A stretch of 39,236 bases of DNA from Bacteroidales bacterium (GTDB lineage: Bacteria; Bacteroidota; Bacteroidia; Bacteroidales; UBA10428). This document shows, piece by piece, positions 37,057-39,236 of the stretch (its first letter is position 1; the number at the start of each line of letters is the position of its first letter). The stretch spans positions 1 through 39,236 of the forward strand of contig JAFGPL010000135.1 of NCBI GenBank assembly GCA_016936215.1. The letters run 5' to 3'. The position numbers were made by a program, and so were the translations under genes. The notes under the pieces are model-generated. The model was not told the origin of the DNA. It did no database searches and saw only the letters and a program-made list of their open reading frames with translations.

Positions 37057-37127
37057 ATCAGGCTATAAAGATTATTTTCGCCTATCACATTGTACGAAAC
37101 AAAAAACATCAGGTAAAATACCGATGC

Positions 37128-37169
37128 CATATTGACATTTCACCCCGGATATTTAAGTCATATTGACAT
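37128..37169 (+). repeat. Two identical 11-bp direct repeats upstream of hsp20
   Basis: CATATTGACAT at 37128-37138 and again at 37159-37169. The start-to-start distance is 31 bp, about three helical turns, so both copies face the same side of the DNA. They lie roughly 100-140 bp upstream of the sigma-54-like element. They may be activator sites; the second also contains a TTGACA that could serve as a -35 box. Confidence 0.6.
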
Positions 37170-37191
37170 ACAAGCTTCCTTTCTTTATCAT
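37163..37191 (+). promoter_or_regulatory. Possible sigma-70-like promoter of hsp20
   Basis: TTGACA (37163-37168), 17 bp spacer, TATCAT (37186-37191): a good match to the general -35/-10 pattern but not to the TAnnTTTG pattern typical of Bacteroidota. It would give a leader of about 140 bases. It competes with the sigma-54-like candidate downstream. Confidence 0.35.
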
Positions 37192-37269
37192 AATTTTTTA
37201 TGTAGATGAATATATAAAACATTAATTATCATTAAAATGTAAGAAAAACCTTTTTACGGCTTTTTAAAA

Positions 37270-37285
37270 TGGCACAGCATTTGAA
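37270..37285 (+). promoter_or_regulatory. Possible sigma-54-like promoter of hsp20
   Basis: TGGCACagcatTTGAA: the -24 TGGCAC is exact and the -12 TTG is at the right distance (5-base spacer), but the usual TTGC reads TTGA. The start codon is 55 bp downstream. With the two upstream direct repeats it fits an enhancer-dependent promoter; the imperfect -12 box keeps confidence low. Confidence 0.35.
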
Positions 37286-37326
37286 AAAATTCAAATAAAG
37301 TAAACATAATTTTAAACTAAAAAAAT

Positions 37327-37332
37327 GGAGGA
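37327..37332 (+). promoter_or_regulatory. Shine-Dalgarno that decides the hsp20 start
   Basis: GGAGGA, 7 bases before ATG 37340. An in-frame ATG at 37325 overlaps this site, so using 37340 both restores a classical ribosome binding site and gives the usual family N-terminus (MTLARLTNNWFPS). Confidence 0.8.
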
Positions 37333-37339
37333 ATTAGCC

Positions 37340-37792
37340 ATGACACTTGCAAGATTAACAAACAACTGGTTTCCATCATTTCCTTCATTAATAGACAAAT
37401 TCTTTGATGGAGATTTGATGGATTGGAACAACCGGAATTTTGCTGAGAGTAATTCGACCCTTCCGGCAGTGAATGTAAAGGAAAATGAAAACGAGTTTAT
37501 GATCGAAGTTGCTGCCCCGGGCTTAAAAAAGGGTGATTTTAAATTAAATTACGACAACGGAATGCTCACTATCTCTTCTGAAAAGAAGGATGAAAAACAG
37601 GAAAAAGACGGTGAAAAAGTAACGCGTCGTGAGTTCAGTTACCAGGCATTTCAGCGTTCTTTCACCATTCCTGAAAACATCGTAAACGCAGATAAAATTT
37701 CAGCAAAATATGAAGATGGTATTCTTCATGTGGCATTGCCCAAACGTGAAGAAGTGAAACCAAAACCGGTTAAAGAGATAAAGATTTCATAA
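37340..37792 (+). CDS. Small heat-shock protein, Hsp20/alpha-crystallin family
   Basis: A 150-residue ATP-independent holdase chaperone. The short N-terminal arm (MTLARLTNNWFPSFPSLIDKFF) is followed by the alpha-crystallin domain (about 40-135: PAVNVKENENEFMIEVAAPGLKKGDFKLNY, GMLTISSEKKDEKQ, FQRSFTIPENIVNADKISAKYEDGILHVALPKR) and an IxI-type tail (IKIS) used for oligomer assembly. The start was set by the Shine-Dalgarno. It stands alone with an elaborate upstream region and its own terminator, and converges on a DnaJ-type co-chaperone gene. Regulation by heat or other stress is likely; the sigma factor involved is open. Confidence 0.95.
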   Translation: MTLARLTNNWFPSFPSLIDKFFDGDLMDWNNRNFAESNSTLPAVNVKENENEFMIEVAAPGLKKGDFKLNYDNGMLTISSEKKDEKQEKDGEKVTRREFSYQAFQRSFTIPENIVNADKISAKYEDGILHVALPKREEVKPKPVKEIKIS

Positions 37793-37943: not shown

Positions 37944-38897
37944 TCAATTCTGACTAAACATATGATTGTTTTTTAATTCTTTTAACTTCCTAAAAAGCTT
38001 GATTTCTTCTTCAGAAAGGTTTCTTGGTATGATAATGTTTAACTGAACATAGAGGTCTCCCGCTTCACCGGGTTTGCCATATTTCGGGATTCCCCTTCCT
38101 TTAAGCCTTAATTTGCTTCCGGTTTGAGAACCTTTAGGGACTGCAATGCTAAGTTTACCCGACAAGGTTTGAGTTTCAATTTTACCTCCGAGTATAGCAG
38201 TATACAAGTCAATATCCACTTTCTTTACAAGGTCGTAACCTTCAATCACATAATCTTTTTCAGGTACAATTTTAATTTTTATAAGAATATCACCCGGTTT
38301 GCCGCCAGGATGTCCCTGCTGGCCTTTGCCTTTAATTCTGAGTTCCTGCCCGCTGTATGCACCGGGTTTTATTTGTAACCTGAGCTTTTCCCCGTTAACA
38401 CTGAGTAAACGTGATGTGCCATTTAATACTTCTGAAAGAGATAATTCCAACTCAGCCTTGTAATCTCCTCCCTTACGCATTTGTCGTGAGCTTGAAAATC
38501 CTGATGTCCTGATGCCAAAATTTCCAAAAAAAGCATTAAAAAAATCTGAAAAACCGTTCCTGGTTTCACCAAACAAATCTCCTAAATCACCTTCAAAATA
38601 AAAGTTTTCACTGCCTGGTGAACCTTTTCCGAAATGTGAAAAGCCAAAATCGTCCGCATTTGCATGCTGAAATTGTTTCCAGTTTGCACCCAGCTGGTCA
38701 TATTTTTTTCTTTTTTCAGCATCACCAAGCACTTCGTAGGCTTCGTTAATTTCTTTAAATCGTTCCTCAGCCTGTTTATTGCCGGGATTTTTGTCAGGAT
38801 GATATTTTACAGCCAGTTTACGATATGCCTTTTTGATCTCATCCTGTGTTGCGCTTTTTGCAACTCCCAATATTTTGTAATAATCTTTATAGTCCAT
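37944..38897 (-). CDS. DnaJ-type co-chaperone without zinc finger (CbpA-like)
   Basis: A 317-residue type II J-protein. J-domain at 1-70 with HPD at 33-35 ([17 protein letters not shown]), a Gly/Phe-rich linker (about 75-135, with [20 protein letters not shown]), then two C-terminal beta domains (about 140-300: [82 protein letters not shown]). The four CxxCxGxG zinc repeats of DnaJ itself are absent, as in CbpA. It stimulates Hsp70 ATPase and delivers clients. It is not linked to dnaK or grpE here, so it is an accessory J-protein. It converges on hsp20. Confidence 0.93.
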
Positions 38898-39236
38898 ATG
38901 CCATCTGTTAATGATATTGGTTTTAAAAGTTCATCTTGTTATTGTAACTAATTGTTAAAATTAAAATGACAACCTTATGGTATGATCAAGACCTAAAACT
39001 TCAGATTAAGATTTCAGATAAGTGCAGAAAAACTCATCAAAAAACAGGCCATACCTTTTAGGGTAAATAGTAAAGTCAAATTGTCTCTCAGATACCTTAA
39101 AATGGAAGGACACACTGTCATTTTGGCTTTTGTATGTAATATTTAAATATCAGAACTCCTGATCTGGAATTGAAAAAATAGGAGTTTTAGGGGATTTTAC
39201 CGCAAAATAAAAAAGCGGTAAATTTGGGGATGCAAT
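38898..39236. other. Region upstream of the DnaJ-type gene to the window end
   Basis: No reading frame with recognisable content on either strand. It should contain the promoter of the minus-strand DnaJ gene. On the minus strand TGGCCTgttttTTGAT (39051-39036) resembles a -24/-12 element but is weaker than the one at hsp20. Two small inverted repeats occur: AACTCCT/AGGAGTT (39154-39186) and TTTACCGC/GCGGTAAA (39196-39222). Confidence 0.45.
39196..39222. terminator. Small hairpin near the window end, possible terminator
   Basis: TTTACCGC (39196-39203) and GCGGTAAA (39215-39222) form an 8-bp stem with an AT-rich 11-base loop; a short TTT follows. It may end a transcript from outside the window or be a regulator site. 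Weak evidence. Confidence 0.35.

Follow-up and report, generated by a model that had tools for sequence, protein, structure and literature searches.

Probable Sigma-54 Promoters of Chaperone Genes in Bacteroidota

In Escherichia coli, the small heat-shock gene ibpB reportedly has a sigma-54 promoter, although sigma-32 is its main regulator there. The hsp20 gene described here resembles ibpB as a small heat-shock gene for which sigma-54 control is proposed, whereas the setting differs: sigma-32 prevails in E. coli, and here a search for HrcA (PF01628) found the protein in none of 60 sampled genomes, including the one that carries this locus (controls were positive in 7 of 14). The closest described system comes from Flavobacterium psychrophilum, in which sigma-54 promoters, termed SM4, were mapped before groESL, lon, dnaK, grpE-dnaJ, htpG, and clpB (PMC9723704). 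The same study counts three activator proteins, suggests that co-expression clusters might have distinct activators, places an activator-LptE operon under an SM5-type promoter (TAnnTTGY), and gives TAnnTTTG as the -7 box of the main sigma factor in a member of the phylum (PMC9723704). It differs from the present case in that hsp20 is missing from its selected table, and we came across no enhancer site or activator assignment in it. Across Bacteroidota, COG0071 (IbpA/Hsp20), DnaK, DnaJ, GrpE, GroES, and GroEL are predicted to be under sigma-54 promoters; this cluster is a statistical one drawn by gene family, and activator specificity is, according to the paper, not available for every one of its organisms (PMC12316311). 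Activators lacking a DNA-binding domain have also been mentioned in Bacteroidetes (PMC3372290).

Sigma-54 control of chaperones is therefore already known for the phylum, and the new and testable part of our analysis is an enhancer, a spacing rule, and the assignment of an activator. Heat-shock control in Bacteroidota is thinly described in the literature that we found; among the titles and abstract openings surveyed, none named either this enhancer or an activator for the chaperones in question. With a defined enhancer sequence, a rule for its spacing, and a single candidate activator, the question becomes open to direct testing.

The window analyzed here is a whole stretch of 39,236 nucleotides from a Bacteroidales bacterium (contig JAFGPL010000135.1). 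It belongs to a draft genome of 332 contigs, which by its Hsp20 is close to MAGs titled Bacteroidales (73% identity) and Bacteroidetes (49%). With good confidence we read the region before hsp20 as a sigma-54 promoter with an upstream pair of enhancer sites, which would be one member of a proteostasis regulon recurring in the order, with the protein P0002 as its most likely activator.

The -24/-12 Element of hsp20

The hsp20 gene (37340–37792, forward strand, PF00011) encodes 150 amino acids and starts at the ATG at 37340, behind a GGAGG ribosome-binding site (37327–37331, forward strand); the ATG at 37325 given in the list of open reading frames lies upstream of this ribosome site. The initial annotation had pointed to two exact copies of CATATTGACAT, to a TGGCAC-N5-TTGA, and to a TTGACA with TATCAT at 17 bp, and its coordinates are right in every case: the copies lie at 37128–37138 and 37159–37169 with a start-to-start distance of 31 bp, TGGCAC-N5-TTGA at 37270–37284, and the two hexamers at 37163 and 37186.

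Judged by pattern counts in the genome and conservation before hsp20, TGGCACAGCATTTGAA (37270–37285, forward strand) is a lineage-typical -24/-12 element. The pattern TGGCACNNNNNTTGMA (TGGCAC-N5-TTGMA) occurs at 12 sites in the genome vs. 1 for the reversed control, and the wider TGGYAYNNNNNTTGAW (TGGYAY-N5-TTGAW) at 77 vs. 21. TTGAA is the form of the -12 box in 11 of these 12 sites, so that the TTGAA of the window, previously described as imperfect, is in fact the local norm. Five of the 12 precede a gene, 38–70 bp from the start codon, and the genes behind them include hsp20, an ABC transporter gene close to that of an activator, and a dnaK recognized by its protein start MGKIIGIDLGTTNSC; the other seven lie inside an open reading frame on one strand or the other.

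A protein search with Hsp20 in the 60 genomes, the own genome included, gave matches in 47. The first set comprised 31 upstream regions (own region included), i.e., 32 minus one that is cut before the start (L029), with one gene broken by a stop codon kept (L036); of four related loci, the two from Bacteroidota were used, and those of Armatimonadota and Bathyarchaeota (L024, L025) were left out of the 31-region counts. TGGYAN6TTG precedes hsp20 in 29 of the 31 regions, compared to a mean of 0.33 and a maximum of 3 in mononucleotide shuffles, and the element sits between -58 and -106 relative to the start codon. The sigma-54 reading put forward from the letters of this DNA thus holds by sequence comparison, and the genome also carries rpoN together with four proteins that have a full sigma-54 activator domain. 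Taking the second G of TGG as -24, transcription would be expected to start near 37296 (forward strand) by the usual register, which would leave hsp20 with a leader of 44 nt.

Predicted Enhancer Sites Upstream of hsp20

The repeats are exact copies, as had been claimed, yet they are not simple direct repeats but the common part of two inverted-repeat sites, which read TGCCA-TAT-TGACA and aGTCA-TAT-TGACA. We termed them UAS1, the distal enhancer site TGCCATATTGACA (37125–37137, core 37126–37136), which contains the first CATATTGACAT, and UAS2, the proximal enhancer site AGTCATATTGACA (37156–37168, core 37157–37167), which contains the second copy as well as the TTGACA; both are predicted from a conserved core. 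An initial consensus, TGYCA-N3-TGRCA, matched only 7 of 31 regions and proved too strict; inspection of the same 31 regions led to the wider GNCA-N3-TGNC. This core lies upstream of the -24 box in 25 of the 31 regions, with 39 sites vs. 0.84 expected (maximum 4), and controls with a spacer of N2, N4, or N5 gave 0, 0, and 2 regions, and four permuted cores 1–3 regions each. Two cores are present in 14 regions, and in 12 of them, including the window, they stand 31–33 bp apart.

Because the core had been derived from these 31 regions, 43 further hsp20 regions were taken as an independent test, some of which had already appeared among the matches of the combined pattern described below. They stem from 44 hsp20 matches without a locus, of which one partial match (G027:C165) was left out; four genes located behind another hsp20 gene (L312, L345–L347) and one partial match (L343) were kept. 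The element was found in 26, the core in 31, and both in the proper order in 22 of the 43 regions (expected 0.8, 2.6, and 0.03); the ordered pair was absent in the other 21, and the hsp20 genes of genomes G041 and G050 have neither element nor core upstream. The repeats are thus conserved, in agreement with the earlier suggestion that they are sites of an enhancer-binding protein.

The exact repeat as such is at chance level, the window holding two exact 11-mer pairs 15–60 bp apart where 40 Markov-2 windows average 0.98 and reach up to 6, and it was dropped as evidence in itself. The strict palindrome TGYCANNNTGRCA was dropped as a genome-wide marker, being found at 18 places vs. 16 for the reversed control, and the genome shows no excess of the core by itself either. 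The significance of the whole arrangement therefore comes from its recurrence before hsp20 of the relatives. One could still argue from the chance-level repeat that element and repeats are accidental matches in AT-rich DNA, a reading with next to no probability in our judgment, as it is already contradicted by a conservation that far exceeds the shuffles.

The initial annotation had also seen a competing promoter of the sigma-70 type, TTGACA-N17-TATCAT (37163–37191, forward strand), from which hsp20 might be read with all the rest being incidental. Both hexamers exist with the 17-bp spacer. Their TTGACA lies within UAS2, the element and cores are those conserved before hsp20 in relatives, and the main sigma factor of a member of the phylum uses TAnnTTTG (PMC9723704), a box that does not occur between 37057 and 37345. 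We judged the hexamer pair to be a by-product of UAS2 and rejected it as a competing promoter; that it drives hsp20 seems very improbable. Very probably, the region before hsp20 is instead a promoter of the sigma-54 type that has a pair of enhancer sites, as it combines a -24/-12 element of fixed spacing and an upstream activator site predicted by sequence with rpoN and AAA+ activators encoded in the genome.

Members of the Proposed Regulon

With a chaperone gene, hsp20, behind its predicted sigma-54 promoter, the locus probably belongs to the sigma-54 protein-quality-control regulon of Bacteroidota. We searched for a combined pattern in which the -24/-12 element and the core are separated by 12–72 bp, where a promoter with two cores may count twice. 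The 60 genomes hold 197 matches (24 with the pattern reversed), and 56 of the genomes carry one or more. The 36 other sampled genomes of the class gave 113 matches vs. 17 reversed, and dnaK, htpG, lon, and hsp20 lie behind some of these sites, compared to 122 vs. 55 in 111 genomes of other classes. These counts suggest that the proteostasis regulon recurs in the order, and also, on thinner sampling, in the class.

Besides hsp20, the pair of core and element precedes clpB, htpG, grpE, dnaK, and a Zn-peptidase gene. The genes that follow the sites were named from the N-terminal residues of their products, and examples were checked with family models: ClpB, DnaK, and HtpG are over the cut-offs, and GrpE, a Clp-type ATPase, and Lon are below, the last two being cut by the locus end. 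Most of the inspected stretches were hand-picked from the matches listed by an A/T-rich core spacer and are not an unbiased census; of the 30 loci that were chosen automatically (L096–L125), 19 have a promoter followed by the gene of a known chaperone, Hsp20, or a co-chaperone, as read from protein starts. A putative neutral zinc metallopeptidase (PF04298) was repeatedly seen with enhancer and promoter (L135, L140, L148, L150, L151, L156), an unexpected member. At another locus (L109, 1568–2671), enhancer and promoter stand before a gene whose best match, below the cut-off, is a ribosome hibernation factor family.

Within the own genome, the pair is found, with the distance of each core to the -24 box in brackets, at clpB on contig C307 (60 and 29 bp), at an hsp20 on C219 (51 and 19 bp), at the Zn-peptidase gene on C71 (29 bp), and at an hsp20 on C226 (50 and 18 bp), here with the weaker TGGCTTATAACTTGT. 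The own dnaK has the element without an exact core within 170 bp, and a look at the first 20 kb of the contig that carries the L002-type gene revealed no grpE of this genome.

The window itself appears to hold a second member. A DnaJ/CbpA-type co-chaperone gene (37944–38897, reverse strand; PF00226, PF01556) is convergent with hsp20 and is preceded by a sigma-54-like element TGGCCTGTTTTTTGAT (39036–39051, reverse strand), which has C for A in the -24 box. One enhancer core (39075–39085) lies 29 bp above this element, measured from the centre of the core to the first T, and two overlapping cores (39109–39119 and 39117–39127, together 39109–39127) lie 63 and 71 bp above. Because the co-chaperone gene has its own element and three cores, the regulon may include the two convergent genes alike, and by sequence this gene is likely a member; none of the other loci L022–L055 contained this neighbor.

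For groES, TTGGCAY is present in all eight loci and a core in six, at 40, 41, 51, 142, 173, and 179 bp, and the TTG at -12 is missing in all eight. The six groES cores (L225, L226, L229, L230, L231, L237) lie inside a hairpin with a T-run that apparently ends the secG operon, and one element may act here as both terminator and enhancer.

Spacing and Helical Phase

The 51 core-to-element distances of regulon genes other than hsp20, for which a range of 18–78 bp was searched, fall at 18–20, 29–31, 50–52, 60–62, and once at 78 bp; they were copied by hand from the locus readings, leaving out one of 153 bp (L117) and genes not counted as regulon members. Their resultant length at 10.3 bp is 0.89, a value that, as with all phasing statistics given here, is too optimistic since the sampled genomes are related. 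The further hsp20 set contributes 33 distances of no more than 92 bp, and 32 of them are within 1.7 bp of 19+10.4k, a lattice that covers 35% of positions. For the first hsp20 set, phasing is clear when each distance is counted once (p 0.001) but only weak when neighboring values are merged (p 0.05).

The hsp20 cores of the window, at distances of 108 and 139 bp to the -24 box, are off the whole-turn lattice, their 31-bp interval placing the two sites on the same side as each other. Promoter-near cores keep whole-turn spacing, but these two do not. Many cores lie only 18–20 bp above the -24 box, which is unusually close for an enhancer site.

Candidate Activator

The four full sigma-54 activators of the genome are P0002, L002, L004, and L005. 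P0002 (408 aa, contig C210) consists of AAA+, lid, and Fis domains without a receiver, and Pfam recognizes no sensor domain in it. Orthologues at 55% identity or more, three of them partial, were found in 57 of the 60 genomes and not in G013 (69% complete), G020 (72%), and G056 (96%). Outside the 60 genomes, an orthologue at 57–68% identity is present in every one of the 36 further genomes sampled from the class, whereas the best values in other classes do not exceed 54% over the aligned part. The recognition helix ISERTLYRK is the same in at least 95% of 72 sequences at each of its positions, and some 100 weakly conserved residues lie between lid and Fis domain.

P0002 resembles PspF (TIGR02974) in joining an AAA+ domain to a Fis-type DNA-binding domain without a receiver; the PspF model aligns to residues 12–405, and solved PspF structures match the AAA+ part. 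It differs in its score, 278.2 bits vs. a curated cut-off of 443.55 and so too low to assign it to the family, in the weakly conserved stretch between lid and Fis domain, and in its neighbor genes. The likeness is therefore meant as an analogy in how the protein would work.

An lptE-like gene follows the P0002-type gene in 19 of 19 loci, and groES-groEL come after secG in eight of them; two stretches end too early and nine show other genes (lptE, secG, groES, and groEL were named by eye from sequence and from PMC9723704). In F. psychrophilum, likewise, lptE comes after a sigma-54 activator gene, the locus tags of the two being near those of groESL, and the promoter there is of the SM5 type (TAnnTTGY) (PMC9723704). 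The activator genes inspected here instead have a TAnnTTTG box upstream (7 of 7 loci). The TAnnTTTG box suggests that the activator gene may be expressed constitutively.

By genome comparison, P0002 is most likely the activator of these promoters, or at least the best candidate. Six of the 60 genomes have a single activator domain, and in five of these (G023, G024, G031, G041, G050) it is of the P0002 type. Among these five, core-plus-element promoters were found before hsp20 in G024, before dnaK, clpB, grpE, and the gene for a hibernation-type factor in G031, and before clpB in G041, and the combined pattern has zero matches in G023 and G050.

Sigma-54 promoters require an AAA+ activator. It is conceivable that the element is real and that GNCA-N3-TGNC is the site of a different factor, such as a repressor or helper, with a separate activator driving the promoter: a position 18–20 bp above the -24 box would also fit a repressor or a class-II-like factor, and the tie between core and P0002 is drawn from sequence, genome G056 having cores at hsp20 yet no P0002 orthologue that we could find. 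Against this speaks that core and element co-occur, that an invariant helix pairs with an invariant core, and that only a P0002-type activator was found in G024, G031, and G041; we regard such a different factor as unlikely. Still somewhat less probable is that hsp20 is driven by L002, L004, or L005. All three are encoded in the genome, and among the matches listed, counterparts of L002 (contig C164) lie 5–16 kb from a grpE promoter in several relatives; but L002 is a receiver-AAA+ protein without a DNA-binding domain, no core stands within 170 bp of the promoter next to L004, and G024, G031, and G041 show no activator except the P0002 type.

With P0002 as activator, sigma-54 RNA polymerase would bind at 37270–37285 and wait in a closed complex. 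The dedicated activator, a protein of PspF layout whose gene precedes an lptE-like gene, secG, groES, and groEL, would bind the GNCA-N3-TGNC sites at 37126–37136 and 37157–37167 and use ATP for opening, whereupon transcription would begin near 37296; the signal would presumably be heat or misfolded protein. In this model, element, cores, conservation, and promoter-near phasing are taken from sequence, and the identity of the activator from comparing genomes.

PspA restrains PspF, and DnaK restrains sigma-32. A far more tentative extension, which we offer as a possibility rather than an expectation, is that the whole heat-shock response in the class Bacteroidia might run through one sensorless enhancer-binding protein, encoded with groESL, that replaces HrcA/sigma-32, acts from phased GNCA-N3-TGNC sites often 18–20 bp above the -24 box, and is restrained by the chaperones that it induces.

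A sigma-54 element without the core was also observed before an ABC transporter gene near the activator L004 (L021, position 1501, and L165), and this L004-adjacent element probably belongs to a separate sigma-54 circuit.
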